The translations under genes and the position numbers were made by a program. Shown here in pieces: positions 309-38,238 of a stretch of DNA of 64,000 bases (positions are counted from its first letter, which is position 1; the number at the start of each line of letters is the position of its first letter). This DNA is from Manduca sexta (Eukaryota; Arthropoda; Insecta; Lepidoptera; Sphingidae). The stretch spans positions 10,037,245-10,101,244 of the forward strand of contig NC_051119.1 in assembly GCF_014839805.1 (NCBI RefSeq). Direction: 5' to 3'. The notes under the pieces are model-generated. The model searched no databases and had not been told where the DNA came from. It saw nothing but the letters and a program-made list of their open reading frames with translations.

Positions 309-1365
309 TTTCACGTAATTTAATGCACGAGTATTCAAATATTTTACCTCTTTAGAGGATTTTCTGGTAACAATGTCCTCCCTTCAGGCTTCAAGTATTG
401 ATCCACAGTATGTCTGTGATTAAATTACCCTGGCGCCATCTTCATTATTAATTTCTTAATACTATCATTTGCGCACATTTACAATTTATAACTTTATTCT
501 TATTCAACAAGTCTCAGTAAATTCAAACGAAGTTTTATGAAACACCGCTTTCGTCCATTTTCGGTTTTCAGTAACACTTTATGACATTTATGTTGGCAAA
601 ATCTAATCAATAATAGGGAATAGGGATGCACTGATATGATATTATGAATCGGTATATCAATTGACATCGGTACTAGGTATTTCTTGTAATGCGTTCTAAT
701 ATATATGACTAAATATCTAGCAATATAATAAACAAATTACATAAATTGTACGCAAAATCCGTCTAATTTTCTGCAAAGAGAAAGTCACTACTTTCATATG
801 TATAAAACATTATTCTTTTTGGCCATTACTGTATAACGCGGCGCAGCTCGGTGGGGCGTTTATAACTTTACTATAGCGATAACAAATATAAAATAAATAA
901 AAGAAAACAATAGCTGAAAAATATGAAAAAGAAACTTTACTTATCGCACTTGATATCTTTCATAATATTATTCCCAAACAGTGATAACTAGAGATTAGAT
1001 TATATTATGCACTTGTATAATATGTAGGACACTTGGATCCGTTTTTACATATAATTAGACCTTGTGCAAATTTTCGCTATGCATGTACTTTTTCATTAGG
1101 ATAACAAATAAAATATGACGTTGCATTATTACAGGCGTAACAAAGTTGCTAAGCTGAAAATAAATCCAATATTTGAAAATATGGGCAATTTTAAAATTTC
1201 ATAATTTGAACATGCTTTTGATTTGAACCTGAGATTTGAACGCATGTTACACATTATGATGTTGGCATCACTGCGCCGTTTTCATATTTCAAACGGTTTT
1301 TGTTTCGTATTCTATGGCGTTTGTCAAATCTAAAAGATTGTAATTGTGTTATTTTTATAATAATT
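309..1365. promoter_or_regulatory. Divergent TAF7/INCENP intergenic region
   Basis: AT-rich spacer between the TAF7 start (308, minus) and the INCENP start (1366, plus). It must hold both 5' UTRs and promoters, because the genes diverge with no other coding signal between them. I see no convincing TATA box with fixed spacing. The portion from 983 onward is repeated after the first N gap (from 19936), so the second INCENP copy has only about 385 bp of upstream sequence in this assembly. Confidence 0.5.
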
Positions 1366-4300
1366 ATGTCCATATTCAATGATTTATTACCTAAAATCAA
1401 AAAAATACCAAACGCTTTCATCAAAAGTTTTAATGATGATCTTAAGGTAAATGTGTTGTTACAAAAATATGGTGTCAGTGTTATAATTCGTCCTAAAGTT
1501 TGCTGTTTCGTTTAAAATATCAACTGATTGCAAATTTGTCTTGTTTAGAATAAGAAGATGGTGATTTTACTGTGATTCAGTGATTTTGAATGTGATTGCA
1601 GATTGCGTTTGACAATTTGGATAAGTTTGAGGAGGAATTTTTAAAAGCGAAAGGAAAGGCGCGAGATAAAACTCAAAAGGAGAAAAATACTACAACACTC
1701 CAAAGTATACACGAGGATGAAGGTACGCCATCAAGATTTATTAGAATTGGTTAGTTTAAACTCATATACAAGGCACCATATTGTGGTTGGACCAGTGATT
1801 TCTTATTGGCGTATGTCTTTGGATTTAATTTGATAAGTACTATTAGAACCCACTATATGACTTTGTTTAAGTATGCTTCGTAGTACACAATTTTTTATTA
1901 CCGTGTTGTTAATATGATACATTATTTGAGTTTCTGAATTTCTTGCATAGTGTAAGGGAAAAGTAAATTAATAGTTCAGGAAAACATTTAAATCCACATT
2001 GATTAACCTTCATTTGCATACTTTTATGTGGGGAGTTTTTGAACAATTTGTCAATCAAAAATTTTGAAATAAGCTGTTAATTCTGTCATTCTTAGTGGCC
2101 CTTATTCTTAGGGCCCCTTGAAACCAGGGGCCCGTGACCTTTTGCCATTGTCACTCTAGTTACACACTCTGGGTGGCATTAATGCTATTATGAGCACTTC
2201 TTTAGCAAACTCATCAAGAGAAAGGCTTGCTTGTCCTGTCATTACTTTGCATAAAAATAAAACTTGGTATAGATCTTTTCAAGCCTTGCATGACCAAAGG
2301 GTGAATCATTTCATCTATTTCAGTTTGGAGCATCATAGATAAAATTCACCTCAATCTTAAAGATACCATAAAGTCCTCAAACTTATATTATTGATTAAAA
2401 ACAATATTTCAGATGAATCAACAAAATCAGACGCCAGCTCGCAGCACAGGTCTAGCGCCAAATCAGTCACGGAGACAACGGGCAAGAGTTCAGTGGAGAG
2501 TGAACCTGACCAGCCGAAGAGGGCATCTAAAAAGCGGAATAAGAATGAGGTGGACGATGTCTTCAGTCCGGAGCAGGACAAGAGACTAAAGCGAAATGCT
2601 TCTGTTAAAGCACAGAGCATTATTTCTAAACAGGTATGTTCCTTTTAGGGTCTATAGTGTCTTTACAATTTGTAATTTGTTCTTGTGATATTTGGATCTG
2701 TGTAACTCCATCATTAAAATATCAAAACAAAAGTGGAAAACAACATACACCTTTATCCTTAAAGGAGTAGGAGGAGGTAAACAGGGTACTTACTTTCACA
2801 TATGTGTCTGTCCCATCATGTGATAGGAAGTGAGCCTTTTGCAATATTGAGCACAAAGTCCAGGCTCCGGGCTTATAGTGAAGAGAAAAACTCAATATTT
2901 TGCCTAACCTGGAATTCAAACTCAAGACCTTAGAGCAGTTTTGTATCACATACAATTACAGGATTATATCTTTGATTGTATCTTATAAATTAGATTATAC
3001 TAAATAAAATGCTTTATTATGTTAATCAAGTTTTTCCAGTGAGTCTTAGACTCTTATGCTTATTCCCAATTTTTTGTGATTTCTGACTTTTGTTGTATGG
3101 TACTGTATCCTTTAAAAAGCTAGAGCCATTATTGTTATAGTAACTATTTTTGCTATTTGTTATATTCATTCCAATATGAGTGGAATGTTATGATACTGAT
3201 ATGATAAAATGTGCAGGTAAATGTTAACTTAACACAAAAGTTGAGGCGTGAGAACTCGACAGAGAAGGTGGAGAAACCGCAGTCTTCGAGAAGCAGGCGC
3301 CGCAAGGACGATGACAAGGAAAACACACAGCCGATCATACAAAGTGAGTATGTCATTAATGTATAATATGAAGAATTGTGTGAACAATGAAGATATTTGG
3401 ATGCTTTATAGAAATCAACTCAGAATGCTAAATTAATTTAAATGTAATATGGTACGAAGATAGGCAGTTGCCGTAAAGAACAGGGTAGATTATTTTTATT
3501 AATTCATTTTTGAATTGTGGTTGGAAGTTTTGGTGTGCACATAGGTAACTTTAATCTTAAAATCATAAATTTGTATGCAATTGCGTCATTAAGTATCAGA
3601 TGGGCAGCTTGCTTCTACTTATTTGGTTGAATTAAAGCAAAAAAAAATGGATATCTTTTTGCTATAAATGTAAAATTTTTTAATAAGTATAACTGAGGGC
3701 CTATGTAACCTGTGCATTCTCCATAAGAGTTGTATATGAATTCTGCTACCCCAAACTATCCCAGCACTATTGATAAAGCCAAAACCCTGGCAGTAGTGGA
3801 ATGGGTCTATGCTTTGCAAAGGGCATTTTATCATACAAGGCTGGTGTTATTGATTATAACTGATGAATTAACGTCTTTGTCCAGTCAAAGAGGAGAAGGT
3901 GTCGTTGCCTCCTGAGCCAGAGTTGATGGAGATGGAATCATTGCCTCTCATCATCCCGATCAAACAGGAGGTGGATAAGGACGATATCGCCATGCCACCG
4001 CCGCCAGTGCCGTTGCCCAGTAAGTATTACTTAGGCAAGAAAACTTGCACAAGTCGACTTTCGCAAGCAATTTTTAACATGTAAACAAACATGGCAAGCT
4101 GACTTCTGCAAATTTTGAATACTTTCAGATACTGTAAAAAGCATTTGGTTCTTATGAAATATTTTACTTCGAAAACTTGCGTTTAAACTTAGTTTTATGT
4201 ATTTTGTTTGCCTTATGCAACAAGTTTCAGTCTCTGAGGTAATACTGTAAAGAAAACTCAATATAACTTCTAGTCTATTTTATATTATGTATATTCAGAT

Positions 4301-7300
4301 GTATTGTGCTATGTATATGTATAGCTAAATTAATAATTAATTGTCCAAATCAGAAGCACGCAGAGCGGCTGCGAAGGAGAAACCGAAGGAGGATGAAAGC
4401 AGCGAAGACGAGGGCGGCAGGCGGCGAACCACGCGCACCAGGAAACAGACTGACACCGCGCCTGTGGCAGGTAACGCGCACTGAATATACGAAAAATAAC
4501 TTGTATTTTAATGTATTACATTCGCATAAACATAAGAAATCAAAATACCGATACCATTAAGTATAATGTATGGATAACCTAAAAAGAAATTGGACAGTAT
4601 ATCAAATTATTGTATTTATTGTTAGCAATGGTATGTCCAATGACCACGGTTGAACATAGCTAACATTCATAAAAAAAATCTAGACTACCCTCTTGTTTTT
4701 TTTTTAAACACAGGATACAATAAAAACATATAATAATGACTATAGCTAGGGTTAGTGTTTGTTTAGATTACACTCCAAATTTTGGTTCTCTCCTCAAATA
4801 GGTGTTTAATCTATTTTTATTTAAGGTTTCAGAATAATCTAAATAGTAAGATAAGTAAATTACAAAGTCATTATCGGTTTGTTACATTTTGTATAAGTTC
4901 CATGGAAATTAATATCATGCATGTAGCACATTAATTAAGTTAAGGCAAATCTAAGAAAGTTTTGTGTGCAATATGTATCAGAGCTACAATTATTCACACA
5001 TCGGTTTTTCCCAACGACACACCGTATCCGATTCAATTAATATGTTAGACAATATAGACTTCTTATTTGTATACAAAATTATACGTGTCTTATGCAGCCC
5101 CGCGGTCCACACGTGGCTCCCGCGCGACGCAGGCCGAGGCGGAGGAGCCCGCGCCCACCGACGCTAGGCCCAAACGGACCAGGGCAAAGAAGGTAACAAC
5201 TACTAAGGTTAAACAGAAACTCATTTTAATAAATTATAAAAAAAAAAACTGTGGATTTACTTCACTACATTTCTTTCCAGAAACCAACTGATGTAGTCAA
5301 TGGCGATGTAGAAAAGGATGCACAGGCTTCAATACTCAGTGGAATTGGTAAGTATAAAATATAATTATAATTTTTGCATTATACATATTAGGTTTTATTT
5401 TTATATGTATTGACATTTTTTTTATTTTTTATTTTATAGAATCTTCCACTGAGAAACCAAGACCGAAGAGAACAAGAAAAATACAAAAGGCGGCGTAAGT
5501 ATCACAACATATCAGTTCTAACCAATGTCACATAATTAAGCAAAAGCTGTTTTTTCCACTATAATATAGAATTTAAAAATTATTTTCGATCTTACACAAC
5601 TGTCAAAGAAGCGTATTGTTTTTACTATAATATACATTATTCTAATAGTCTTTTAACATTTCGTTGTATCGTCCCATAGTTACGTCGATACCGATAAAGA
5701 GTCCGAACCAGAGACACAGCCAGAACCCATTGTATCACCAAAGGAAGAGAGGGTGTCCGCACCAGAGGTGAAATCGCCGATACTGCCGCTCAAAGTGAAA
5801 AACAACATTAAAGATAAGGACAAACAAGAGACAGAGAAAAAAGACAAAGAGAAGGAAAGAGTAGAAGTGGACGCGATAGAAAAGGAGATAATGAATGAGA
5901 CTCATGTGTTGAAGGACACGCCAGCTGTCACAGACATGGACAAGACTGTTATACTGCCAAACGGACATACGGCGCCCGCGCAGAAAACTGTAAGTATAGA
6001 ATAAACCACTCTTTTTTGCCAGATTACAGCAGGATGTCTTAAAAGAATTCGTAATTTACTGTCTGATGTCACAGATATAATGGCCTAAGTGTGCGAGGGA
6101 GATAGCAATGTTTCCTGTTACGCTCCCATTGTAGTAACGATATTGCGTATATTCATTGTAATAAATACGATTGTACATTTTTATTACATACATACATACA
6201 TAACATCACGCATTTTATCCCCGAAGGGGTATGCAGAGGCGCAACTAGGGCACCCACTTTTCGCCAAGTATGTTCCGTCCCATGATGTGATAGGGGGCGA
6301 GCCTATCGCCATATCGGGCACAAATTCCAGACTCCGGGCTGATACTGAGCAGAAAAACCCAAATATCACTTTTTATTGCTTTTATAATATTAACATGGTA
6401 CATATGACTTTATGTAAACATAAGATGCTATGTCTAATGATATTGTATTTGTTGTCTTCAGATGAATATGAACGAGACAGTGGTGCTAGAAACAAGGCCG
6501 GCCATGGACGCAACTGTAGTACTCAACAATGGTATGGCTTAAGACATTTTATATACTATGCTGGTGGTGGGATATATTTTATATCCGCCCGGATAGCAAC
6601 CACCGTATTCAATGTGTTAAAATCCGCTATAGTGGCCCACGTAAGTGTGTCGCGTTTCGGGATCAGCCTGTATACATCCGGTTCCAACAAGCCGGCATTA
6701 TTGGGTCGACTGCCGAGGGGTAAATGCTGGTGGTAGGATATATTTCATATCCGCCCAGAAAGTGACCACCGTACATAAGATGTTAATATCCGCCATAGTG
6801 GCCCACGTAAGTGTGTCGCGTTCCAGTGATCAGCCTGTATATCCGGTTCCAACAGGCCGGCATTATTGTGTCGACTGCCGAGGGGTAAATGCTGGTGGTA
6901 GGATATATTTCATATCCGCCCAGAAAGTGACCACCGTACATAAGATGTTAATATCCGCCATAGTGGCCCACGTAAGTGTGTCGCGTTCAGAAATCAGCCT
7001 GTGTAGATCCTAATCTATACTATTATATAAAGCTGAAGAGTTTGTTTATTTGTTTGTTTGTTTGTTTGTTTGAACGCGCTAATCTCAGGAACTACTGGAT
7101 CAAACTGAAAAATTATTTTTGTGTTGGATAGCCCTTTGTTCGTGGAGTGCTATAGGCTATATATCATCACGCTATGACAAATAGAAGCGGGGCAGTAATG
7201 GCTAATCTCAGGAACTATCGGTTCGAACTGAAAAAATCTTTTTTGTGTTGGATAGCCCTTTGTTCTTTGAGTGCTAAAGACTATATATTATCACGCTATG

Positions 7301-10300
7301 ACCAATAGGATCGGAGCAGTAATGAAACATGTTGCAAAAACGGGGAAAATTTAGTAGTGTTGAGAGCTTCCGTGCGTGCGCTGCATAAACGGTTAAAGTT
7401 ATGCAACAATGATGTATGACGGGATTGTTCCTCTTAAAAAGTTCTACAAAAATATATTATTAAGCAAAGTCCCCCGCTCCATCTGTCTGCCTGAACGTAT
7501 TAAACTCAAAAACTACCCAACGTATTAAGATGAAATTTGGTAAGGAGACAGTTTGAGACCCTGGGAAGAACATAGGCTCCCGGGAAAATATATAGCGAGA
7601 CTTTTATAACGGAAAACTTTAGCCCGAAAAACTTTATAACGCGGGCGGAGCCGCATGCAAAAGCTAGTTTAATAATACGGCGACGATGCCTCTCCGAGTT
7701 GGAATGTGTTACGACCTTTCATACAGATGAGCCATATCGCATATCGGATATTAATAATAAAACACGAAAAAGCCTATTCAATTATAAAAGCATCCGTAAC
7801 CAGACACTCTGCAAAAATAGATTATTAAATCGAAAGATTGAACGTAATAACTATCCACAAAATACTTGGCTAGAGTATACATACTAGCAACTGCTTCAAA
7901 TCATAGCGCGATGTAGCTGTGAAAGCGGTCAACACGGACCCACACGCGGCACACATGTCGCGCGACATTTTAACACACCGCGATAAATACGAACACGTGT
8001 CATGGAGACAGGGGATTTTTTTCAATCATATATTGCCTCATTCGCAAGATATTATAGGAAAAATTAAATTTGTTGCAAAGATAGCGCCATCTGTTGGTAT
8101 CTGAGAAGATACTTATAGTAGGGAATGTTCATGCTTTGTGAGTATCCTAATATAATTGTGTCGACCGAGGGGCAATCATCTCTCGTCAGTTGACATTCTA
8201 TTGGACCCTACTCCACTTACTACCAGGTGCAGTGGAGACACTTCTGTGCACTTATAAAACAAAATACTATGCATTTTTGTTGTCTGAATAAAGAATAATT
8301 ATGAACCAATTCATTTTCGAATCAGTAAAAAGGTTAATACATTTCTATTTACATTGAAACATCACTGCACCTGCCATCATGTATTAACAATCCCAAGAAC
8401 AGTTGTGTATTAATGATATATTACTCATTGTTAGCTGCACATAGGCTGTTGTAAGCTATCAGCTGCCCGACTTCACCATACCAATGTAACCATTGTTTTT
8501 AATAATTTTCCATATAGTTAATTGAAGCGACCATCTGATCCATTATACGCATGTAATTTACAATGTTATAGATAATATTTTTCTGAACAGATCCGAAAGG
8601 CGTGGACATTACGGATGACAACTCTCTAATTACTGACGACAGCGATTCTGCGCACACGCCACCTCCGAAACAACCACCTACAGTTCAACCCACGTGAGTA
8701 TTTATATACAATATTAAAATGGGTTTTTCTTGATATTCGACTGCCTTGCTCGTTTGGTTGTAGATGAGTAGGAAAACTTACAGAATTTGAGTTCCGCAAA
8801 TTTTTGTAACAATCATGGCTAGTTGATTTTTGGAAATATTGAATTAAGGCTTGTGGCGATTCGCTTGTGTATAGAATTATTGAAGTCAGTAGATTGCTGT
8901 GTGAACTAGGTGGTCTAAACTTAGAATATCACATTTGCTGTGTTGTGGTTTCGGGACAGATTCCAAAGATCGGTAAAGTTATATTGGTGTTTTTCTGCTC
9001 AGTGTCAACTTTGTAGTATCAGATATCCCAATTGGTTCGCCCCTTATCATATCAAGAGACGGTATACATAATATAGCTAAATATGGGAGGACTATTTTGC
9101 GCCACTGCCTAATCCTATCGAGTTAGTAGACTAAGGGGCGTCCTCAAAAACAAACCTCTACGGAGTTTGTGGTGTATTATGTTCCAAATAGCGGACCCTA
9201 ATGTGAACCAAACCAGAATGTTAACATAGTTATTATATGAAACAGTAAACCTAATATTGAGTCATTAGTAAAAATAACCCTACGCTATTCAAATAAGTAT
9301 TGTATAACTATTCTTTTGAAAATGTCCAGGTCTGCTGTGAAAGAGAAGGTCCAGCAGTTCGAAGAGATGGCGTCGCGAGTGACTCGCACAAAGACCAGAG
9401 CCATGGCCAAAAAGGTGAACTAAATAATCATTTTTGTACAAGTACCACTTATTTTTAGGTCTTATTTACTGCTGAGTCTGTGTCATATAAGCCTTATGTA
9501 TATAGACATAAGGTGGAAATTTCAATGTCATCATTGATATTTTTTTGGCCGATTTTAGTATAAAGCAAACTTCGGATCGACACCAAAAATAGACCAAACA
9601 GAACAAAACTTATTTGACATGCCAAAAGATTTAATTTTGATTGGGTTATTTTTACCATTGCATTATAGTTTACTGCTAAAACTAACTAAAAGATTACTAA
9701 TACCAGCCATACGTCTATAGATATAAATTGCAGTTTCCACTGTCATTATATTTCTGCTGAAATTACATTTTTAAATGGACAAAAAGCTTACAATGTACTC
9801 GTTTTGTGCAGGAGGACCCAGTAGAGAACCAAACGCCGCCCGATAAGATAGTGAAGGCGGTGCTGTCGTCTGACACGTTGCACAAAATGAACGACATGAT
9901 CTTCAACGGGAAGCCGCCCCAGCATCAGGTGCGTTTACTAATACTACATCACATCTTTACACCGTTTTAGGGGCAGGCAGAGATGTATCAAACAGTCATT
10001 TTGTTAGCTATGTTAGGTCCCATGTAATGGAGGGCGGGTCTATTGCCATATACCAAGTGCAGTTTTGCATTCCAAGCTTGATACTAAAAAAAATTCCAAC
10101 ACTATAATGCGAGATTTAGATTAGCAACTAAACTTGCAGAAGTAAACTTACTCATGGAATTTTTACCGTATAAAAAATCACTGCTAGAGTAAATGCATTT
10201 AGAAATTCCTTCTGTCAATATATTGTTACAAGAATTAGTTACATTTACTTTTACGTTTAGCTGATAGATAATTTTTATGCTGTATCCGTCCCTCGTTTAA

Positions 10301-13300
10301 ATAAATCAATTATATTGTAATAATATAGGTTATAAAGTGGCAAGTGGCAATGGGCAGGGCACATAGGTCGTAGAACTGATGGCCATTGGGGCGGAAAAGT
10401 TTTGGAGTGGAAACCACGAATTGGGAGACGCAGCGTAGACAGGCTCCCCACGAGATGGACCGACGACCTGGTGAGGGTCGACGACCGACGGACGAGGGCG
10501 TCCCAGAACTGATCCCTATGATGCTCAGTGGGGGAGGCCTATATCCAGCTGTGGACGAAATGATGATGACGATGATTATTATTTTTCTAAGTGTCATGCG
10601 TGCTTTTGATTTGTATGATTTCATTGTACCTTTTTATTTGTAAGTCATGTTGTAAAAAAATATTTATGTAATTCATACTTTTGGTTCGCTACATAAAAAT
10701 AAATGGAGAAATTGGAAGTGAATGTTGTGGCATTGCAGACGTCGAGTTCAGCGGTGAAGCCCCGCGCGGCGGTGCCGGTGCCGAAGGTGGCGTCGTCCGC
10801 GTCCAAGCTCAGCGCGCTGCGCGCCGCGCGCGACGCCGAGGAGCGCGACCGCGAGGACGCGCGCAGGAAGAAGGAGGCCCTGCTCGACGCCAAGCGGGAG
10901 CTGCAGCGGAAGTACGATACCAACATTATTCTCTTTTTTGTTTCCTTTACTCATAGGAATGGGATAATGTCGACCGTTTTCAATAAATCATACATCGCGA
11001 TACTAAATCAAACGGAATTTAGAAGTATTTTTTGAGATGCTTTCAAATTGCTTTGATTGTTTTAATCGGGATCAGATTAAATATTAAGATTGGTATCGTT
11101 TATTGGTTATAATTATTTAGAACATGTTTAAGATCTCATTAAGTTAAGACTACACAGAATGTATGTTAGTTGTGTCACTACGAAAAACATAATACTTTTC
11201 CTTGAATCATTACCACAATATGAACTCTGCTTAGTGTAACATAATCTAATTACTCATTTAGACTATTAGCAAGTAATCTCTAATAACTTTACTATGAATT
11301 ATGAGTAATGAATACACCGGAATCGTGACTTCTTCTGTACTCAGCAACTATTTATATCGGGATTAAAACTGTGTGTTGTGTCAGGAAGCGCGAGGAGAAG
11401 ATGGCAGCGGCGGCGGCGGCGCGCGACGCGGCCGAGCGCGAGCGACGCGCCGCGCACTCCGCCGCCGCCTCGCAGCGGGACAAGCGCCAGCACCAGCTCG
11501 ACTGCGGGCGGCAGGACCGGCTGCGAGACATCGAACGGGTACACCACACACGTCTATCTATATCTATACTATTATATAAAGCTGAAGAGTTTGTTTGTTT
11601 GTTTGTTTGTTTGTTTGAACGCGCTAATCTCAGGAACTACCGGTCCAAATCGAAAAATTCTTTTTGCGTTGGATAGCCCTTTGTTCGTGGAGTGCTATAG
11701 GCTATATATCATCACGCTATACCCAATAGGAGCGGAGCAGTAATGGCTCATCTCAGGAAATACCGGTCCAAACTGAAAAATTCTTTTTGCGTTGGATAGC
11801 TCTTTGTTCGTGGAGTGCTATAGGCTATATATCATCACAAAAAAATCTTTTTGCGTTGGATAGCCTTTTGTTCGTGGAGTGCTATAGGCTATATATCATC
11901 ACGCTATACCCAATAGGAGCAGAGCAGTAATGGCTAATCTCAGGAACTACCGGTTCGAACTAAAAAAATCATTTTGCATTGGATAGCCCTTTGTTCGTGA
12001 AGTGCTATAGGCTATATATCATCACGCTATGACCAATAGGAGCAGAGCAGTAATGGCTAATCTCAGAAACTAGGAGTTTGAACTGGGCCCTTATTCTCTA
12101 TCCCGCACGTTATTTTAACAGTGCGTAACAAGCACGTAACACAACACATCATGTTTAGGACTATAGAAATTTGGCTTACAGAATACCATTTCACGCACAT
12201 TTCTCAAAGATAACATGACACGGCCGCGTTACGAGTTTACACTATCATACAGAATAAGGGTCCTGAATAATTCTTTTTGTGTTGGGTAGCCCTTTGTTCC
12301 TGGAATGCTATAGGCTATATATATCATCACGCTATGCCCAATAGGAGCGGAGCAGTAATCGCTAATCTCAGGAACTACCGGTTCGAACTGAAAAAATATT
12401 TTTGTGTTGGATAGCCCTTTGTTCCTGGAGTGCTATAGGTTATATATCGTCACGCTATGACCAATAGGAGCGGAGCAGTAATGAAACATGTTGCAAAAAC
12501 GGGGACAATTTATTAGTTATGAGAGCTTCCGTTGCGTGCGCTGCGTAAACGGTTAAAGTTATGCAACAATGATGTATGACGGGATTGTTCCTCTTAAAAA
12601 GTTCTAAAAAATATATTATAAAACAAAGTTCCCGGCTGCATCTGTCTGCCTGAATGTGTTAAACTCAAAACTACCCAACGTATTAAGAGGAAATTTGGCA
12701 TGGAGACAGTCTGGGACCCTGGGAAGAACATAGGCTCCCGGGAAACTACTACTTTTATAACGGTAAACTTTAGCCTGAAAAACTTTATAACGCGGGCGGA
12801 GCCGCGGGCAAAAGCTAGTACTCATATAAAGATGAAGAGTTTGTTTGCTTGAACGCACTAATCTCGGGACCTAATAGGGAGCTACATCACTCCTAAGTGC
12901 TATAGGCTACTTATTATCCCGGGAAAATGTTAGTCCCGGAAAGACTTTTTCACGCGAGCGTAGCTGCGAGCAAAGGTATGTTCGAATGTTTCTGGAACAT
13001 TCAAAATGTCACTACAGGTCGCGTTGTATTTCAAATTTAGTAATAAGTTTGGATCAAATAAAATGCCGTGACCAAACTTATCCCAACACACTACTCTCTA
13101 TATTATTTTATGCGGCTGTCCAAACTGTCTTTAAGTGATAAATTAAAATGAATAAAATATTGTAACGCGAAGAAATTAATTGTACGTTGTACGTTTCACA
13201 GAAAAAAATGGAGCTTGCGCGTAAAGTAGCCGAGACGGAAGAGAGGCGACGCGCGGAGGAACTAGCGCGACGGCAGAGGCTCGCCAGCGAACAACGCAAG

Positions 13301-18397: not shown

Positions 18398-18549
18398 GGT
18401 AAGTAAAGGAATGTATAATAAAAAATATTTTTCGTGGTTCGTTGTGAAAACGGAATGTCAAAGAAGAACAATTGATTTTTAGTCTGTTTGGTTAAATTTT
18501 CATTGGTGTGTCCAGCCCGAAATCAATAATTTAATACAAAATATAATAA

Positions 18550-18880
18550 GGAGCCGTTCAAGTATTACGTAACGCAATTTGGGGAGAGGTGGCGTCTTGT
18601 AGAACGTTACGATGATTTACAGGGGCGGGAGGGGGCTTTCGTACAAAGCATTATGTTACATTGTTTTTTATTATTTTAAAACAATAACAAACATATTTTA
18701 GCGACTCCGGATTTTTGCGTAAAATAATTGTGAATATAACACAAAGAAATGTCACTTTAGAGTTACGTAACTTTTGGAGAGGGGCGGGGGCGTACAGGAA
18801 AAAGTTACGGCGCGTTACATGAGGGGGGGGGGGGGTCAAAAACCTTCAAAAATTGCTTTACGTAACACTTGAACAGACCC
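18550..18880. mobile_element. Harbinger-like MITE (copy 1)
   Basis: 331 bp with about 30-bp inverted ends. The left starts GGAGCCGTTCAAGTATTACG and the right, reverse complemented, starts GGGTCTGTTCAAGTGTTACG. Both continue into TAA(C/A)GCAATTT. TAA flanks both sides (18547-18549 and 18881-18883), which fits the 3-bp TWA target of PIF/Harbinger elements. A poly-G run lies inside. Copy 2 has it at 36742-37066 with a shorter G run. Confidence 0.65.
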
Positions 18881-19935: not shown

Positions 19936-20320
19936 GATCACTAGAGATTAGATTATATTATGCACTTGTATAATATGTAGGACACTTGCATCCGTTTTTA
20001 CATATAATTAGACCTTGTGCAAATTTTTGCTATGCATGTAATTTTTCATTAGGATAACAAATAAAATATGACGTTGCATTATTACAGGCGTAACAAAGTT
20101 GCTAAGCTGAAAATAAATCCAATATTTGAAAATATGGGCAATTTTAAAATTTCATAATTTGAACATGCTTTTTGATTTGAACCTGAGATTTGAACGCATG
20201 TTACACATTATGACGTTGGCATCCACTGCGCCGTTTTCATATTTCAAACGGTTTTTGTTTCGTATTCTATGGCGTTTGTCAAATCTAAAAGATTGTAATT
20301 GTGTTATTTTTATAATAATT

Positions 20321-25106: not shown

Positions 25107-28100
25107 GTAAGTATAAAATAAACCACTCTTTTTGCCGGATTACAGCAGGATGTCTTGAAAGAATTCGTAATTTACTGTCTGATGTCACAAATAATGGCCT
25201 AAGTGTGCGAGGGAGATAGCAATATTTCCTGTTACGCTCCCATTGTAGTAACGCTATTGCGTATATTCATTGTAATAAATACGATTGTACATTTTTATTG
25301 CTTTTATAATATTAACATGGTACATATGACTTTATGTAAACATACGATGCTATGTCTAATGATATTGTATTTGTTGTCTTCAGATGAATATGAACGAGAC
25401 AGTGGTGCTAGAAACAAGGCCGGCCATGGACGCAACTGTAGTACTCAACAATGGTATGTCTTCGACATTTTATATACTATGCTGGTGGTGGGATATATTT
25501 TATATCCGCCCGGATAGCGACCACCGTATTCAATGTGTTAAAATCCGCCATAGTGGCCCACGTAAGTGTGTCGCGTTCCGGGATCAGCCTGTATATCCGG
25601 TTCCAACAGGCCGGCATTATTGTGTCGACTGCCGAGGGGTAAATGCTGGTGGTAGGATATATTTCATATCCGCCCAGAAAGTGACCACCGTACATAAGAT
25701 GTTAATATCCGCCATAGTGGCCCACGTAAGTGTGTCGCGTTCAGAAATCAGCCTGTGTAGATCCTAATCTATACTATTATATAAAGCTGAAGAGTTTGTT
25801 TATTTGTTTGTTTGTTTGTTTGTTTGAACGCGCTAATCTCAGGAACTACTGGATCAAACTGAAAAATTATTTTTGTGTTGGATAGCCCTTTGTTCGTGGA
25901 GTGCTATAGGCTATATATCATCACGCTATGACAAATAGAAGCGGGGCAGTAATGGCTAATCTCAGGAACTATCGGTTCGAACTGAAAAAATCTTTTTGTG
26001 TTGGATAGCCCTTTGTTCTTTGAGTGCTAAAGACTATATATTATCACGCTATGACCAATAGGATCGGAGCAGTAATGAAACATGTTGCAAAAACGGGGAA
26101 AATTTAGTAGTGTTGAGAGCTTCCGTGCGTGCGCTGCATAAACGGTTAAAGTTATGCAACAATGATGTATGACGGGATTGTTCCTCTTAAAAAGTTCTAC
26201 AAAAATATATTATTAAGCAAAGTCCCCCGCTCCATCTGTCTGCCTGAACGTATTAAACTCAAAAACTACCCAACGTATTAAGATGAAATTTGGTAAGGAG
26301 ACAGTTTGAGGCCCTGGGAAGAACATAGGCTCCCGGGAAAATATATAGCGAGACTTTTATAACGGAGCCGCATGCAAAAGCTAGTTTAATAATACGGCGA
26401 CGATGCCTCTCCGAGTTGGAATGTGTTACGACCTTTCATACAGATGAGCCATATCGCATATCGGATATTAATAATAAAACACGAAAAAGCCTATTCAATT
26501 ATAAAAGCATCCGTAACCAGACACTCTGCAAAAATAGATTATTAAATCGAAAGATTGAACGTAATAACTATCCACAAAAATACTTGGCTAGAGTATACAT
26601 ACTAGCAACTGCTTCAAATCATAGCGCGATGTAGCTGTGAAAGCGGTCAACACGGACCCACACGCGGCACACATGTCGCGCGACATTTTAACACACCGCG
26701 ATAAATACGAACACGTGTCATGGAGACAGGGGATTTTTTTTTCAATCATATATTGCCTCATTCGCAAGATATTATAGGAAAAATTAAATTTGTTGCAAAG
26801 ATAGCGCCATCTGTTGGTATCTGAGAAGATACTTATAGTAGGGAATGTTCATGCTTTGTGAGTATCCTAATATAATTGTGTCGACCGAGGGGCAATCATA
26901 TCTCGTCAGTTGACATTCTATTGGACCCCACTCCACTTACTACCAGGTGCAGTGGAGACACTTCTGTGCACTTATAAAAACAAAATACTATGCATTTTTG
27001 TTGTCTGAATAAAGAATAATTATGAACCAATTCATTTTCGAATCAGTAAAAAGGTTAATACATTTCTATTTACATTGAAACATCACTGCACCTGCCATCA
27101 TGTATTAACAATCCCAAGAACAGTTGTGTATTAATGATATATTACTCATTGTTAGCTGCACATAGGCTGTTGTAAGCTATCAGCTGCCCGACTTCACCAT
27201 ACCAATGTAACTATTGTTTTTAATAATTTTCCATATAGTTAATTGAAGCGACCATCTGATCCATTATACGCATGTAATTTACAATGTTATAGATAATATT
27301 TTTCTGAACAGATCCGAAAGGCGTGGACATTACGGATGACAACTCTCTAATTACTGACGACAGCGATTCTGCGCACACGCCACCTCCGAAACAACCACCT
27401 ACAGTTCAACCCACGTGAGTATTTATATACAATATTAAAATGGGTTTTTCTTGATATTCGACTGCCTTGCTCGTTTGGTTGTAAATGAGTAGGAAAACTT
27501 GCAGAATTTGAGTTCCGCAAATTTTTGTAACAATCATGGCTAGTTGATTTTTGGAAATATTGAATTAAGGCTTGTGGCGATTCGCTTGTGTATAGAATTA
27601 TTAGTCAGTAGATTGCTGTGTGAACTAGGTGGTCTAAACTTAGAATATCACATTTGCTGTGTTGTGGTTTCGGGACAGATTCCAAAGATCGGTAAAGTTA
27701 TATTGGTGTTTTTCTGCTCAGTGTCAACTTTGTAGTATCAGATATCCCAATTGGTTCGCCCCTTATCATATCAAGAGACGGTATACTTAATATAGCTAAA
27801 TATGGGAGGACTATTTTGCGCCCCTGCCTAATCCTATCGAGTTAGTAGACTAAGGGGCGTCCTCAAAAACAAACCTCTACGGAGTTTGTGGTGTATTATG
27901 TTCCAAATAGGGGACCCTAATGTGAACCAAACCAGAATGTTAACATAGTTATTATATGAAACAGTAAACCTAATATTGAGTCATTAGTAAAAAAAAAACC
28001 CTATGCTATTCAAATAAGTATTGTATAACTATTCTTTTGAAAATGTCCAGGTCTGCTGTGAAAGAGAAGGTCCAGCAGTTCGAGGAGATGGCGTCGCGAG

Positions 28101-31100
28101 TGACTCGCACAAAGACCAGAGCCATGGCCAAAAAGGTGAACTAAATAATCATTTTTGTACAAGTACCACTTATTTTTAGGTCTTATTTACTGCTGAGTCT
28201 GTGTCATATAAGCCTTATGTATATAGACATAAGGTGGAAATTTCATTGTCATCATTGATATTTTTTTGGCCGATTTTAGTATAAAGCAAACTTCGGATCG
28301 ACACCAAAAATAGACCAAACAGAACAAAACTTATTTGACATGCCAAAAGATTTAATTTTGATTGGTTTATTTTTACCATTGCATTATAGTTTACTGCTAA
28401 AACTAACTAAAAGATTACTAATATCAGCCATACGTCTATAGATATAAATTGCAGTTTCCACTGTCATGATATTTCTGCTGAAATTACATTTTTAAATGGA
28501 CAAAAAGCTTACAATGTACTCGTTTTGTGCAGGAGGACCCAGTAGAGAACCAAACGCCGCCCGATAAGATAGTGAAGGCGGTGCTGTCGTCTGACACGTT
28601 GCACAAAATGAACGACATGATCTTCAACGGGAAGCCGCCCCAGCATCAGGTGCGTTTACCAATACTACATCACTTCTTTACAAATTTTTAGGGTCAGGCA
28701 GAGATGTATCAGACAGTCATTTTGTTAGCTATGTTAGGTCCTATGTAATGGAGGGCGGGTCTATTGCCATATACCAAGTGCAGTTTTGCATTCCAAGCTT
28801 GATACTAAAAAAAATTCCAACACTATAATGCGAGATTTAGATTAGCAACTAAACTTGCAGAAGTAAACTTACTCAAGGAATTTTTACCATATAAAAAATA
28901 CCATAAAATACCATATATATTGTAATAATATTGGTTATAAAGTGGCAAGTGGCAATGGGCAGGGCACATAGGTCGTAGAACTGATGGCCATTGGGGCGGA
29001 AAAGTTTTGGAGTGGAAACCACGAACTGGGAGACGCAGCGTAGGCAGACCCCCCACGAGATGGACCGACGACCTGGTGAGGGTCGACGACCGACGGACGA
29101 GGGCGTCCCAGAACTGATCCCTATGATGCTCAATGTGGGAGGCCTATGTCCAGCTGTGGACGAAATGATGATGACGATGATTATTATTTTTCTAAGTGTC
29201 ATGCGTGCTTTTGATTTATATGATTTCATTGTACCTTTTTATTTGTAAGTCATGTTGTAAAAAAATTTTTATGTAATTCATACTGTTGGTTCGCTACATA
29301 AAAATAAATGGAGAAATTGGAAATGAATGTTGTGGCATTGCAGACGTCGAGTTCAGCGGTGAAGCCCCGCGCGGCGGTGCCGGTGCCGAAGGTGGCGTCG
29401 TCCGCGTCCAAGCTCAGCGCGCTGCGCGCCGCGCGCGACGCCGAGGAGCGCGACCGCGAGGACGCGCGCAGGAAGAAGGAGGCGCTGCTCGACGCCAAGC
29501 GGGAGCTGCAGCGGAAGTACGATACCAACATTATTCTCTTTTTTGTTTCCTTTACTCATAGGAATGGTATAATGTCGACCGTTTTCAATAAATCATACAT
29601 CGCGATACTAAATCAAACGGAATTTAGAAGTATTTTTTGAGATGCTTTCAAATTGCTTTGATTGTTTTAATCGGGATCAGATTAAATATTAAGATTGGTA
29701 TCGTTTATTGGTTATAATTATTAAGAACATGTTTAAGATCTCATTAAGTTAAGAGTACACAGAATGTATGTTAGTTGTCACTACGAAAAACATAATACTT
29801 TTCCTTGAATCATTACCACAATATGAACTCTGCTTAGTGTAACATAATCTAATTACTCATTTAGACTATTAGCAATTAATCTCTAATAACTTTACTATGA
29901 ATTATGAGTAATGAATACACCGGAATCGTGACTTCTTCTGTACTCGGCAAGTATTTATATCGGGAGTAAAACTGTGTGTTGTGTCAGGAAGCGCGAGGAG
30001 AAGATGGCGGCAGCGGCGGCGGCGCGCGACGCGGCCGAGCGCGAGCGACGCGCCGCGCACTCCGCCGCCGCCTCGCAGCGGGACAAGCGCCAGCACCAGC
30101 TCGACTGCGGGCGGCAGGACCGGCTGCGAGACATCGAACGGGTACACCACACACGCCTATACTCATATAAAGATGAAGAGTTTGTTTGCTTGAACGCACT
30201 AATCTCGGGACCTAATAGGGAGCTACATCACTCCTAAGTGCTATAGGCTACTTATTATCCCGGGAAAATGTTAGTCCCGGAAAGACTTTTTCACGCGAGC
30301 GTAGCTGCGAGCAAAGGTATGTTCGAATGTTTCTGGAACATTCAAAATGTCACTACAGGTCGCGTTGTATTTCAAATTTAGTAATAAGTTTGGATCAAAT
30401 AAAATGCCGTGACCAAACTTATCCCAACACACTACTCTCTATATTATTTTATGCGGCTGTCCAAACTGTCTTTAAGTGATAAATTAAAATGAATAAAATA
30501 TTGTAACGCGAAGAAATTAATTGTATGTTGTACGTTTCATAGAAAAAAATGGAGCTTGCGCGTAAAGTAGCCGAGACGGAAGAGAGGCGACGCGCGGAGG
30601 AACTAGCGCGACGGCAGAGGCTCGCCAGCGAACAGCGCAAGGCAGACGAGCAGCGACGAAGACAACTCACAGAGGCAGAGAAGTAGGACTTACATTAATA
30701 TTAGATTAAGTAACATAAGCATTCATAATTATTCGCGCATAATAAAATCGCTATGCAATATATTCCGTGCTACAAAACTGTTAACTACTAATACTGTCAC
30801 TGCGAATTTCGACACTATTTTCGCATGTTAAAATTGTTTGATTTAACTGGATGACGGATGAACAAGCCGTTCGCCTGGTGGTAAGCGACATGACCGATCA
30901 TATACCACATAAGGTGAAAAATCATACACTGGACTCATATTGAATCCTGAGTATCAGTAGCGTAGGGTGAAATTTTCCTAAAGGCAACCCGACACAACTT
31001 ATAGGTACTAATTATATGCATAAATGAGGTCTGCAAATCGGTCTTATCTTAATTAGATTTTACATCAATCACGAAAGGAAAGCTGGCAGGAATTTAATTA

Positions 31101-32881
31101 TCCTTACCTAATGTGGACCTTTCGCCATAATGGAGTATCCTGAATATTTTATTTAAATTTAATTTATATTGATTGAAAAAATATTAAATAGTCATATATT
31201 TATGCCATAGTGTGAGGAAAGAGGCGGCCTTGATGGAGAAAGAGATAGAGAAAAGGCAGAAGGAATATATGGAGAAACAGAAGATGAAGCACAGGATCGA
31301 GGATAAAAGTAAGTATTATTTAGATATTTATGACTCATTAATAAGGTGTGATTATTTTAAATGCAAAAATACCTTTAGTTTGTTTTATTGCACAGAATCC
31401 TTGACAAGCATTTGAGTGAACTTCAAAAATATATAGTGGTATTGATACTAAAAAGTATCGATACGATTCGGAAAAATGATCGCATTTATTATTTTTGTTT
31501 CAGCCTTTTTTATACCAGTATTGATTATCGATGGCCATAAATATCGATACTAAATCGATGATTTGTTATCAGTGCACACTCCGCTGAAGACTGTGAACGG
31601 CGTGACCACCGGCGTGGGCGCACACCACATGGAGCCGGTGTACATGTGCGACGGGTTCCAGTACCTCGTGTCGGACGAGGACTCCGACCCGCCGGAGAGA
31701 CCGGTGCCAGACTGGTCAACTTCTAAGGTAACGCGCACTCATTTATACACAATACACTAATACATCACGCCTTTATTTTCCAGAAACACCTTCAAACCCC
31801 TTGAATTACAAAGCATTTTTGGCATTCCACTGCGATGGTCATCCGAAGACATGAGATGTTAAGTCTTATTATGTTTCTGAAAGGCCCGGGTACAACTGGG
31901 CTACTTTATGCCATACTGTTACTGTCTCCATTTCGAACACAAGTTCCAAACTCGGGGTTGATGTAACAAGTATAAGTAATGAGGTGTATGTGTTGTTCGC
32001 AGGCGCGTCGGCTGCAGCTGACGGTGCAGAGCGGCGTGGCGGCGGCGCACGTGGACCGGTTGTTCAGCGTGCGCGTGCACAGCCCGGACCTGCGGCTGAT
32101 CTTCCCCGACATCGAACGCGCGCGTCTCAAGCGCACCTCCTCCGCCGTGTGGCGCACGCCGCCGCGCCTGCCCGCGCTGCAAGAGTCAGTATCGCGACGC
32201 ACCGCACACATGCACACACATTGCACACATAACTCACAAACAAATTACACACACGACATACTACATAAAAACCACGTCCTTTTAATTATGTTTTATTACC
32301 CTCGAAGGTAAACAAACTGCCAATCAGATAGTATGTGGTCATCGCTGCCAATGGACGTTGGCAATGCTAAAGCTGCTGCCTAGCGTAAAAAAAATATTTA
32401 AACCGAGGAGGGATACCCCGTGGGAGGCAAAGAAAGAAGTCACATAATACTTTACAATTAAACAGGCTACAATATTTTTCAAATCCGTAAATGTTGCTCT
32501 CAATCCAATAAATTAAACTTTATCCAACATTTACTGACCAATGACTGCTCTGTTATCCGCGGTTATCAATAAACGATTCCGATCCCTTTCTTCAGTCCAT
32601 CGCGAAAGTAAACCAACCAACAAATATTTTTTACGTGGGTACAAATGACTTATATTTCTAATTGGTTTATTCACGGGATCGGATCGTAGATTAAAATTGG
32701 GATTGTTTAATGATAAAGGTTGTATATCTTTCAAATCGCACGCAAGTCATTTCATCTTTTTATTTATTTATTTTTTTTTCAGGTAAATTGGCCAACGCTG
32801 TTCAACCGGCTAAAGAATATCACTATAAATAAACATAGATCATTCATCGGGCTATATCGGCGTTTCCCGCAAGTGGAGTAA
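20321..32881 (+). CDS. Incenp: INCENP, inner centromere protein (copy 2), 21 exons, 902 aa
   Basis: Same gene model as 1366-15543: 21 exons with the same lengths, phases and splice sites, giving an uninterrupted 902-codon frame. The IN-box, Thr853-Ser854-Ser855 motif and single alpha helix are unchanged. Against copy 1 I count five amino-acid changes (V95A, P224A, E237D, T288A, P356H), all in the poorly conserved middle, and a larger number of silent ones. One acceptor changes from CAG to TAG (before exon 17, 30540-30542). Both copies being intact and this similar suggests alleles of one gene. If the duplication is real, it is very recent and both genes may work. Confidence 0.9.
25482..25767. 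repeat. Tandem repeat, about 165-bp unit, two units (copy 2)
   Basis: Units start at 25482 and 25646. One unit fewer than in copy 1 (6561-7013); otherwise nearly the same sequence. Confidence 0.8.
25768..26384 (+). mobile_element. Non-autonomous Helitron, INCENP intron 11 (copy 2)
   Basis: Allelic to 7014-7667. About 34 bp next to the 3' end are missing (TTTATAACGGAGCCGC replaces the longer hairpin arm), so the terminal hairpin is broken, while the CTAG end remains. Confidence 0.8.
28934..29189 (+). mobile_element. RTE-type LINE 3' end, INCENP intron 14 (copy 2)
   Basis: Allelic to 10329-10588, with the same RT C-terminus (TDGHWG, PTRWTDDLVRV) and GATGATGA tail. Confidence 0.75.
30156..30317 (+). 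mobile_element. Old Helitron-like fragment with empty insertion site (copy 2)
   Basis: Uninterrupted version of the fragment at 12819-12976. The junction 30159/30160 (A then T) is the pre-insertion site of the 1262-bp Helitron of copy 1. Confidence 0.65.
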
Positions 32882-34703
32882 CGAACAATCATCTGTTATA
32901 CTTGAGGCATGGCAGAGGATTATAAGTTTGTCAATATATATCCAATTTTAAGCTAATCGAAATAAGATACGTATTTCAGTGGCCTTCCGAGTATTGAGGA
33001 ATAGTGCCAATTTTCGTAAATTTTGGACTGGAAGTGCTTGTAGGGTTGCAACTGTCATATCACTATGTGCATTATGCATAACTATTGTCTCTGGTTAGCT
33101 GTATTTGTGAGAGGGCACCATTCCAGATATATAGTACGTTAAACTGCGGATGTATCAACCCACCAATCAGATCGCTTGATTTCATAGCTTAGCTTCCAAC
33201 GACCACAATCATGCAATCCTATTGGTTAGACACATTATCTGTGGCATTCAATTATTACTCTTGTGCCATTGAATTACGTGTCAATGTTGATCTTAAGATT
33301 TTTATTCCCCATTCGTATGGGGTTATAAAGTGTAAACCGTGTATCTAGCTGTTAAATGTGTTATTTGTCGTATACCTAAGAAATTATTTAAGTTAGGCTG
33401 TTAGTATATTTTCGTGTTTATTATTTACACTTTATTTAGCGTAATATCAGCAATTTTAGTATAAATGCGGGGATATTTGGATGGGTTTTTTGACAACTTT
33501 TGACCAGTTCTTATTTATTGACTTACAATTGTATGAAATATGATTTTGTAGCATCCATGGGACGTTTAATGTATGTACAATACGATAATTGCTAAAGTGT
33601 ATCAAGAAACTAATCGTACTTCATATTCACACAAAATAAACTATGTATAAGGCGCGGCGTCGACTAGAGCAAAGTCAAAGTTCGCCGAGTCGAATCGTAT
33701 TTATTCTGTAGGCGCGCTGAATCGGCTCGGCGCGTTAATAATGAACACAGTTTCATAGCTGACGATACTTAAATGCGACTCATTTTTTTTCGACTTTGCA
33801 AGCTTATTCGGCGCTTGCCTTAATATTTAGAGGCTTGCCAAATACCATTTTTTCGCGTTGCGGCATCAACCTGTTTATGAACAGTCACGACCAGGCCGGA
33901 ATAATTGTGTCGACTGGCGAGGGATAATCATCTCCACTAAACTGAAGTCGAGACACTGACTTGTTGTCTACACCCTTGTCACACTTTAGAAAAATATTAT
34001 TGTGACGCCCTGCCGCTACGAATCAACTTCGGGCCGGCTTTCGTGCAATAAGCATGAAATTAAACTGTTCCACAAAAACATCAGAAGATCGCGAGATGCA
34101 AAAAAAAATTACCGCTGAGTTTAATGACCGCCTGGTTCTTCAGTTGCAATGATCAAATTGCAAACACTAAGTTGATTCCAATGAAATATATATTTATTTA
34201 AATAACCTCGGACAAGACTTTCAATAAATGATCCGATGCTATATTCAGATCAATCAAGAACCAATCAAATCTTCTGTAAGCCAAACTTCGCGATCGATCT
34301 GAAGATAGCGTAGTTCCTCTATCTGCCACCCGCTGTGTATGATATGTTAAGTACAGTAAGGCGCAGTTTCATCCGTGGTCAAATAAGGATCTAGTCACAC
34401 TGGTGCATTGCAAGCGAATTCAAAGCGGCTGAGTGACGCTCGTCCAGTGTAATAAGAACTTACTTAATCATGGTTGAAACAATAGCCTCTAAGGGGGCGC
34501 TAGCCGCTCGCCACTCGTCTCCTACTGCTGCGTCTTGATCTACAGACTGGACCCTGCAGTTCTAGAGTAATTTAATGTTAAGACTGTTTTGTAATTACGA
34601 AAGAAACATTAAAATAATTTACGTCAAGTACTAATTTGTTTTTATTGAACACTGATAAAATGGGCTATCATGAAAGTATGATGTGATGTTCCAGTTAAAT
34701 TAT
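32882..34703. other. INCENP copy 2 3' flank
   Basis: 3' UTR and intergenic DNA allelic to 15544-17372. Candidate AATAAA at 33635-33640. The dispersed repeat related to the 165-bp units is at about 33870-33985. Nothing coding recognised. Confidence 0.4.
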
Positions 34704-35740
34704 TATAGATAAACCACACAACTGGCAGATCGCCCGCGCGGCAAAAGGTAGGTTGGGGGGCGATGTTACGGGGGTGAAGGCATGGGTACGGGACACAGAG
34801 GTCAAATGACATTTCTCAGTGTGCTCACGATTCCCCAAAGAGAATTATAATATACTAGCTCTTGCTCGCGGCTTTGCCCGCGTGAAGGTGTTTTCCGGGA
34901 TAAAAGTCTCACTATATATTTTCCTGGGATAATAGCCTATAACCTTCCCAGGGTCTTATACTATCTCCATAGTCCATACCAAATTTTGCTTTCCTATACC
35001 ACGGCATATGTCACGTCCCGTTCCCGTGGGAACGAGGTAAAAATCCTATGTCCATCTCCTGGTTCTAAGCTACCTCTCCACCAATTTTCAGCCAAATCGG
35101 TTCATCTGTTCTTGAGTTATAAATAGTGTAACTAACACTACTTTCTTTTATATATATAGATATGGAAACGGTTCCCGCACAGCGCAGTTGTGTAGTTGTT
35201 ACGAACGCTTAAAAGAAAACGCATATGATTTAAGCTGCCCAAGATATTTCCCGAGGGGAACTCTCAACATCAGTCTTCGTTTCTGCAAAGAAAATAAACG
35301 AGCAAGCCAAACAGCTGGTGTACAATATAGATTCCTTTAAACTAAGAAAAGAAGATCAGTCATGAATCGAATTTTTACAATATTTCTGTTTTTCAAAATT
35401 ATGTGTTTTTGTCTATATTTAAATAAATGATTCTAGTATAAGTCACGTTTTATCATATCCATGTATATGTTATAATAAATTACAATAATAATAATATAAT
35501 AAAGATAAAAGTAAAATTAAAATGAAATAATATTAAATACCCTAGACAAATCAATTATCTAGCGATTTAAAGAAGAATGCAAGTAAAGTACATTAGACAT
35601 TATCTTATAATTACAGTCGACATTATTAGGTCTATCTCGCCTCGGAATTTATTTTAGCAGAAAGTAACTACGTGTATATCGATGCCCACCCCCAGCTACC
35701 TCTTCCGCGCGGGCGATCCGCTAGTCGTGGCTTATCTATA
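34704..35740. mobile_element. TIR element with nested minus-strand Helitron (copy 2)
   Basis: Allelic to 17373-18397. The nested Helitron spans 34855-35160 and ends in CTAGCTCTTGCTCGCGGC as read on the plus strand. No transposase is seen. Confidence 0.55.
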
Positions 35741-35877
35741 GGTAAGTAAAGAAATGTATAATAAAAAATATTTTTCGTGGTTCGTTGTGAAAACGGAATG
35801 TCAAAGAAGAACAATTGATTTTTAGTCTGTTTGGTTAAATTTTCATTAGTGTGTCCAGCCCGAAATCAATAATTTAA

Positions 35878-36020
35878 TCTATACTTATAATAAATCTGTA
35901 GAGAGGTCAATTCTGTACATGAAATATATTTCCAAAATAACTATCAGGGGGTGATTAGGGATCGATACTGATGCCAAAAATGCAATTAGTAAAATTTTTG
36001 TCTGTCTGTCTGTCTGTCTA

Positions 36021-36081
<61 letters not shown>

Positions 36082-36726
36082 ATAACCGTTATAGAAACAA
36101 AAACTACTCGACAGATTTTAACGAAACTTGGTAAAATTATTTGTCATACTCCTGTGCTGGTTATAGTATACTTTTCATCACGCTACAATTAATAGGAGCA
36201 GAGCAGTGAAGGGAAATGTTGGGAAAACGGGAGAAGTTACTCCATTTTTAAGCTTCCGTCGCGTGTGCAACCTTAATGGTTAAAGCTACACAGAAATCAT
36301 GTATGACGGAAATGTTCTCCTTAAAATTATGTAAAAAATATCCCACGACAGCATATGTCTATCTTTTATGGTTGACTCACAATAACACGTGTAACTCCCG
36401 ATAGCTTAGCAGTTCGAAGCTTTCTTATTATATTTGTCTACTCTTACGTTTATAACACTCTCAGTCATCCCTAATTAAAAAGTTAACATTATTAAATATT
36501 CCATAAAAAAGAATCATAGAAATTGGTATAGAAACACCAAAGTTATACATGATATGCTAATAATAAGCCATCACGCGTGAATACTGAATCCCATCATCAG
36601 ACCCTGACCGGACAATCGGACCACCTGCATACCACCATACATCAAAAAAACATCCCGACAAATTGAGCACCTCCTCCATTTTTGAAGTCCGAAATCCACG
36701 CGGGCGAAGCTGCGAGCGGAAGCTAG
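35878..36726 (+). mobile_element. Helitron downstream of INCENP, present only in copy 2
   Basis: 849 bp starting TCTATACTTATAATAAATCTG after an A and ending GCGAGCGGAAGCTAG before a T, with the hairpin CGCGGGCGAAGCTGCGAGC upstream of the end. Copy 1 shows the intact A/T junction at 18534/18535. It contains a (TCTG)n microsatellite at about 35999-36081, which produces a fake Leu-Ser-Val-Cys open frame. Confidence 0.88.
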
Positions 36727-36741
36727 TACAAAATATAATAA

Positions 36742-37066
36742 GGAGCCGTTCAAGTATTACGTAACGCAATTTGGGGAGAGGTGGCGTCTTGTAGAACTTA
36801 ACCTAACTGATTTACAGGGGCGGGAGGGGGCTTTCGTACAAAGCATTATGTTACATTGTTTTTTTTATTTTAAAACTATAACAAACATATTTTAGCGACT
36901 CCGGATTTTTGCGTAAAATAATTGTGAATATAACACAAAGAAATGTCACTTTAGAGTTACGTAACTTTTGGAGAGGGGCGGGGGCGTACAGGAAAAAGTT
37001 ACGGCGCGTTACATGAGGGGGTCAAAAACCTTCAAAAATTGCTTTACGTAATACTTGAACAGACCC
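36742..37066. mobile_element. Harbinger-like MITE (copy 2)
   Basis: Allelic to 18550-18880, same inverted ends and TAA flanks. The internal G run is four bases instead of fourteen. Confidence 0.65.
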
Positions 37067-37256
37067 TAACTGAAAAATATTTAATTTGTAACACATTTGG
37101 TAAATCAGGGACAGATGGAGACATGGGGAGTGGGAGTGACAGGTGTACAAATACGGTGCTGAATCATAATATATAATGTAACTAGTTTAGTTCAGTTTAT
37201 TACTATAATAACATTATGATCGTTCGATCGTTTTTAAATTCTTTTTGTTTAAAGAT

Positions 37257-38238
37257 AACTGAAAATATTTCCCTCCAAATTATTTTGCATAATCAATAAT
37301 ATAGGTATTCAAAATTGCTTCCATGTTTTAAAAAATACTTATATAAGTATTATTCTCCAATTGTCAGAGATGACTTCATAATAGCTTGTAGTCTGTTCAT
37401 AATAGCATTCTTAATTCTATATTATGCCAATATGTGTATTATGGTGTGGGTTATGTGTTCTTATAAACATTCAGATTAAGATTAGTCTACAACATAGCCT
37501 AAAATGTAACAATTTATTGTTCCTACAAATGAAAATGAAAATAAAATAATGTCACAAAACTTTACCAATGTTATCTATATCAGTTGCTTTCACACATAAC
37601 AGTGTATTATCTATATTATATCTATAGATAGCTATGTGTAATATGAACAGTTCAGTCTTATTAGTAATACAATTGGAATGTAATTTTTTTAACATTATTA
37701 TTAAGTATAAAGTGGTAAAATTTATTACTTCGGATTAAAGTGTAGGCGTAGCTGTGGACAGCGGGACAAAGTTGGGTTGACCATGTGTAATTATATATTG
37801 GACTGGCTAGTATTACTAATACAGATAAAAGTGATATCATATTGCCAGAATTACGTACTTAAAACAATTTGATTAAACATGTTATCAAATATTTTTTCTG
37901 CGTAAAGCAACTATTATTACCTGTGATTATATGTATTAGTAACAATTTGATGATAGGTTTTTAACAATATGAGTTCACAAATTTTATCTTTAAAATGATA
38001 AGCAGAGCTGCACTTAGTGCAAATAATCCTTGGATATATTGATCAGATGACCTAATTATAGTCGGGCAGATTACCATATTAGATGCTAACTTTACTCCTG
38101 GGCAATTTACATACAAATTTTAATTACCTGATTGCGACTTGAACCTGAAATTATTACAATCCACTACTACAATCAAGGTATGCTGCTAGTAGACGAATTG
38201 AACATTGATGAAATTACCTTTTTTTCAGATCCATCAAC
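37257..38238 (+). repeat. Upstream flank of the unknown gene, duplicated unit A
   Basis: AT-rich DNA whose pieces (ATAACTGAAAATRTTT, GTGTATTATCTATATTA, CGTAAAGCAACTATTATTAC) recur in the same order, diverged, upstream of the paralogue between 43447 and 47925. The promoter and a 5' UTR exon should lie here, because TTTTTTCAG at 38218-38228 is a splice acceptor 10 nt before the ATG. The first part (to 37642) is also the end of INCENP block 2. Confidence 0.5.

Follow-up and report, generated by a model that had tools for sequence, protein, structure and literature searches.

The genome assembly of the model insect Manduca sexta holds two copies of the gene for inner centromere protein (INCENP), a subunit of the chromosomal passenger complex, within one 64,000-nucleotide stretch (the window; C5:10037245-10101244). 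From the assembly sequence, we consider it highly probable that the two 18-kb blocks carrying these copies are the two alleles of one locus in a single diploid Manduca sexta male, set side by side as a false heterotype duplication. The second INCENP copy is thus most likely a product of faulty assembly, with no real duplication behind it. A preliminary description of the window had preferred two haplotypes to a tandem duplication, and this preference is supported by an unplaced contig, C3514, which shows that block 1 leads into a separate version of the sequence lying beyond block 2.

Self-BLAST of the window paired the two blocks in collinear matches, from 983 with 19936 through 19435 with 37642, at 91.5-97.7% identity; E = 0 across kilobases rules out chance. 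Block 1 (983..19435, plus strand, 18,453 bp) forms the right-hand part of a piece that we call fragment A, and block 2 (19936..37642, plus strand, 17,707 bp) forms the left-hand part of contig B (window 19936-54699, 34,764 bp), which starts at the start of block 2. Exactly between them, on the same scaffold, lies the scaffolder's gap (19436..19935), one of two N runs in the window that each measure exactly 500 bases (the other is 54700-55199). Self-BLAST and a scan for N runs reproduced to the base the coordinates and the 500-N gap given earlier, including the placement of the end of block 1 at the last base before the gap and the start of block 2 at the first base after it. Aligned in full, the blocks share 16,613 aligned bases with 385 single-nucleotide variants (SNVs; 2.3%) and 54 indels, six of which are at least 40 bp long (149, 192, 167, 116, 1262 and 849 bp). 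Divergence rises to 11.5% in one 1-kb bin, 4001-5000, where the alignment may be poor.

The end of block 1 is, on sequence evidence, very probably a cut made by the scaffolder and not a natural contig end. Namely, fragment A (C5:10021680-10056679, window -15564 to 19435) is bounded by two 500-N gaps and is exactly 35,000 bp long, and we read its right end as a cut because this round length coincides with a base-exact continuation in an unplaced contig. We queried the whole genome (470,002,661 bases in 4,056 contigs) with the sequence on contig B immediately downstream of block 2 (37643..44765, plus strand) and found its other version in C3514 (13,484 bp), base 1 of which aligns to window 37643, the base after the end of block 2. 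Fragment A and C3514 placed end to end match contig B without a lost or repeated base at the junction. In the 240 columns of the junction alignment only two sites differ, both within the first 40 columns, and the last two rows are identical at 160 of 160 positions; a single BLAST piece of 3,366 columns (96.3%) spans the junction. The right flank is therefore collinear as alleles are, with block 1 continuing via C3514 into its own version of the post-block-2 DNA. Since block 1 precedes its own downstream copy in C3514, the order block 1, gap, block 2 is to be read as a placement artefact. The preliminary description had reasoned that the breakpoints of true duplicates would not coincide with contig ends; with block 1 ending at a cut at 35,000 bp, that argument needs mending and we do not use it, and its conclusion is unchanged.

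Both blocks hold an INCENP gene on the plus strand with 20 coding exons, open over 869 residues, at 1366..14849 in block 1 and 20321..32185 in block 2; the stop codon was located in neither. Spliced, they are identical to the database protein P0001, 'inner centromere protein A [Manduca sexta]', at 864 of 869 residues (block 1) and 869 of 869 (block 2), which bears out the gene identity proposed earlier. The Pfam ARK-binding model matches weakly, below its cut-off (18.3 vs 22 bits), so the name INCENP rests on the database match. The copies differ at 31 codons, 26 synonymously and 5 non-synonymously (proportions of differing sites, pS 0.044 and pN 0.0025). A protein search of the whole genome listed 38 INCENP exon matches, all in blocks 1 and 2 except two on another contig, C2643, an end of which carries the first two exons of the gene. 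At the DNA level, a genome search with 13000-19435 of block 1 listed two full matches, on fragment A and on contig B. With INCENP exons in both blocks and the first two on C2643, the earlier warning that this assembly would give a wrong INCENP gene count is right at the sequence level. The public model P0001 follows contig B, since it matches block 2, but not block 1, at every residue, and its cluster has 2 member sequences on 2 contigs.

To compare divergence inside and beside the blocks, we counted SNVs in BLAST pieces of at least 400 columns and at least 93% identity. Fragment A and contig B differ by 275 SNVs in 15,146 columns (1.82%). The same filter gave 207 SNVs in 11,612 columns (1.78%) for C2643 against fragment A, and 187 in 9,031 (2.07%) for those pieces lying wholly outside the block. 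At this one locus, divergence between the blocks does not exceed that between two versions of the adjoining DNA, as would be so for alleles. Clean insertions run both ways between the blocks, one of 1,262 bp in block 1 only (11557..12818) and one of 849 bp in block 2 only (35878..36726). By eye, the first has the ends TC...CTAG between A and T and the second has similar ends, both of which we take to be Helitron-like. Further downstream, C3514 carries a 4,655-bp element (L033:4605-9259) whose 200-bp terminal repeats are direct and 97% alike; it has a 5-bp target duplication, and the corresponding site in contig B is empty. This element is young: 28 of 140 candidates were scored, and more than 20 of them are near full length at 98-99%. 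In aggregate, an intact INCENP in both blocks and equal divergence inside and beside them speak for two alleles.

The published account of JHU_Msex_v1.0 describes an assembly of nanopore reads from a single male, built with Canu 2.0 and scaffolded on Hi-C data by 3D-DNA in -mode diploid, with 4,057 scaffolds and 470,051,811 bases (PMC8022704). These figures fit the genome searched here, which falls short of them by one scaffold and 49,150 bases, and we take the window to come from that assembly. Under the two-allele reading, Canu would have built one contig of at least 48,484 bp, holding TAF7, INCENP and downstream DNA of one haplotype (fragment A and C3514 as a single contig), and a second, contig B, with INCENP and downstream sequence of the other; which contig belongs to which haplotype is something that we infer. 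3D-DNA would then have cut the first contig at base 35,000, leaving the 13,484-bp tail unplaced as C3514. Such a cut would be a misjoin correction, perhaps set off by ambiguous read mapping in the doubled region. The 35,000-bp piece would have been placed ahead of contig B, head to tail with 500 N between, and the diploid merge step would have left the 18-kb overlap uncollapsed. 3D-DNA fills its gaps with 500 N, makes its edits at round coordinates and, under default settings, merges overlaps only from about 20 kb upwards; the 18-kb overlap would have been missed because it falls short of that length.

A true tandem duplication of exactly the 18-kb block would account for two adjacent blocks in the same orientation on C5, and we give it almost no weight. 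The join of one copy's end to the next copy's start exists only across the gap, and both full matches listed for 13000-19435 run on into the sequence that begins at 37643, fragment A via C3514. We rejected this explanation on the ground that both copies continue into the same downstream DNA. Equally remote is a homotype false duplication, in which one haplotype was assembled twice through read errors. The assembly is a nanopore one and some of its contigs are poorly polished, as is C3514, with 45 one-base indels in 7,020 columns against contig B (vs 19 in 15,146 for fragment A against contig B). However, the differences between the blocks are mostly SNVs (385), the 1,262- and 849-bp insertions are clean and lie in opposite directions, and 26 synonymous to 5 non-synonymous differences are not what errors would produce. 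The reciprocal insertions and the 26:5 ratio led us to reject it.

Somewhat more credible, yet still improbable, is a real and recent duplication whose unit is larger than the block and includes INCENP and at least 7 kb downstream. Fragment A with C3514 and contig B would then be two loci, and contig B would start inside the second unit. The running of block 1 into downstream DNA is compatible with a unit that includes that DNA, and for parts of the flank there are relatives, 83-90% alike, at C5:9.81-9.85 Mb. This explanation would also draw on the version counts, which weigh against two alleles of one locus because they exceed what one diploid locus needs. The first 1.1 kb of the block exists in a third version, C2643, beside fragment A and contig B, and the flank at window 41289-44765 exists in four (contig B, C3514, C3470 and C2286), a number that two haplotypes would not give unless some of these contigs overlap within one haplotype or are poorly polished versions of it, as is possible. 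If C2643 and contig B belonged to one haplotype they should agree, but C2643 is no nearer to contig B than to fragment A. Sites at which one version stands apart in the 1.1-kb overlap number 10 for fragment A, 10 for contig B and 6 for C2643, and an attempt to assign C2643 to a haplotype from this overlap failed at 10 sites against 10. Poor polishing of small contigs, or reads of mixed haplotype at contig ends, could produce such a pattern. C2286 is listed at 98-99% identity to contig B and 97% to C3514, despite sharing an element junction with C3514. Finally, it counts against the two-allele reading that, among four 500-N gaps in 284 kb of C5, the direct neighbours dovetail at the INCENP gap only.

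The junction of the 4,655-bp element with the flank occurs at exactly two sites in the genome, on C3514 and C2286 (0 in a reversed control). Hence one insertion is common to the two contigs, which may be overlapping contigs of a single haplotype. At 41274, the empty-site pattern is uninformative, lying in a repeat with 320 genome matches at two or fewer mismatches. Against a larger duplicated unit, the genome holds two INCENP genes and a two-exon contig end, whereas two loci with two alleles each could give up to four. The divergence between the blocks is the same as that between C2643 and fragment A. Like a haplotig, contig B begins within the overlap. The assembly is also rich in duplicated BUSCOs (benchmarking universal single-copy orthologues), at 5% compared with 0.6, 3, 0.3 and 2.9% in four other sphingid columns of the published comparison (PMC10234378). 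In addition, the INCENP protein query matched 59 proteins, with most listed species present once, a listing that is no test of copy number. Because of the loose ends in the version counts, we keep a slim chance for the larger duplication of INCENP with its flank, which would be segregating or fixed in Manduca sexta and concealed in collapsed and unplaced contigs, and which would account for the up to four versions of the flank and three of the first 1.1 kb.

Read as two alleles of one locus, the INCENP blocks are a known kind of error. False heterotype duplication with a gap between the copies is a described class (Ko et al. 2022, Genome Biology, PMC9516828). As described there, two alleles lie adjacent in a haploid scaffold with an assembly gap between them, and the gene is counted twice. 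The INCENP case differs from that description in that one gap-side end was very probably made by the scaffolder, which cut at a round length, and the severed tail is still there as an unplaced contig. That paper reports the use of half read depth and 1-copy k-mers, whereas the INCENP case is argued from the assembly alone; it can be argued without reads because the cut-off tail survives. Undercollapsed heterozygosity was also met in the Hi-C scaffolding of AaegL5, where, in the account given, the merge algorithm is meant to collapse overlaps and its defaults are relatively stringent (PMC6421076). As at the INCENP locus, overlapping contigs of alternative haplotypes had been set near each other by Hi-C (PMC6421076). 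For AaegL5 the merge is reported to have been rerun with permissive settings and a whitelist (PMC6421076), whereas here the 18-kb overlap stayed.

Two INCENP genes in the assembly could mislead gene counting, expression measurement and the design of guide RNAs, and an INCENP copy number taken from it would be read as biology. A round-length fragment before a scaffolder's gap, together with an unplaced contig that starts at the next base, is a sign of such errors that needs no reads. A literature search naming 'Manduca sexta' with 'inner centromere protein' returned a match that by its title concerns a hemichordate, and in one on Manduca sexta, JHU_Msex_v1.0, false duplication and haplotig, 'INCENP' did not appear among the matches listed.

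On the left side, the flank of the block is covered by fragment A and C2643 only, and contig B begins inside the block. Fragment A alone carries the N-terminal part of TAF7, at 3..383 (minus strand; PF04658 TAFII55_N, E 1.2e-31), in head-to-head orientation to INCENP. A further minus-strand frame to the left of window base 1 has no Pfam match of its own and is likely the C-terminal part of TAF7. The preliminary description had placed TAF7 next to block 1, which holds in that the gene stands beside INCENP on fragment A, but the window itself contains its N-terminal part only. We agree with its explanation that TAF7 is missing from block 2 because contig B starts there, and can add that a second version of the TAF7 side is present on the unplaced C2643. 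That contig looks poorly polished: about 275 bp of fragment A, between window -757 and -482 and inside a TAF7 frame, are missing from it, and in INCENP exon 2 it shows homopolymer differences of one base.

Beyond block 2, contig B contains two stretches, 37788-38806 and 47473-48494, that are 84.7% alike. Some 200 kb upstream, at C5:9.81-9.85 Mb, lie relatives (83-90%) of the flank 47473-51800, so that the downstream flank seems to belong to a local duplicated family. An element at 39027-41391 has inverted ends of about 160 bp (39027-39194 and 41231-41391), and parts of it match dozens of genome sites at 93-97%. Scans of the window with Rfam and for tRNAs gave 0 matches and 0 genes.

At its far end, contig B dovetails a second time: 53174-54699 is 98.95% identical to the opening 1,526 bases of the contig at C5:10109454. 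The 16,510-bp contig lying between these two overlapping contigs is probably misplaced, and their overlap is a second one left unmerged. This intervening contig opens with an inverted repeat (55200-61822), the left arm of which begins at its first base. An alignment of the arms, 55200-58432 and 58570-61822, covers 3,279 columns at 96.8% identity and contains 34 mismatches and 48 gap openings; the repeat could be an artefact of a fold-back read or else two real inverted copies. Within it lie coding sequence for a reverse transcriptase (RVT_1, E 1.1e-9) and a stretch that, by eye, we take to be GIY-YIG-like, as in Penelope-like elements.

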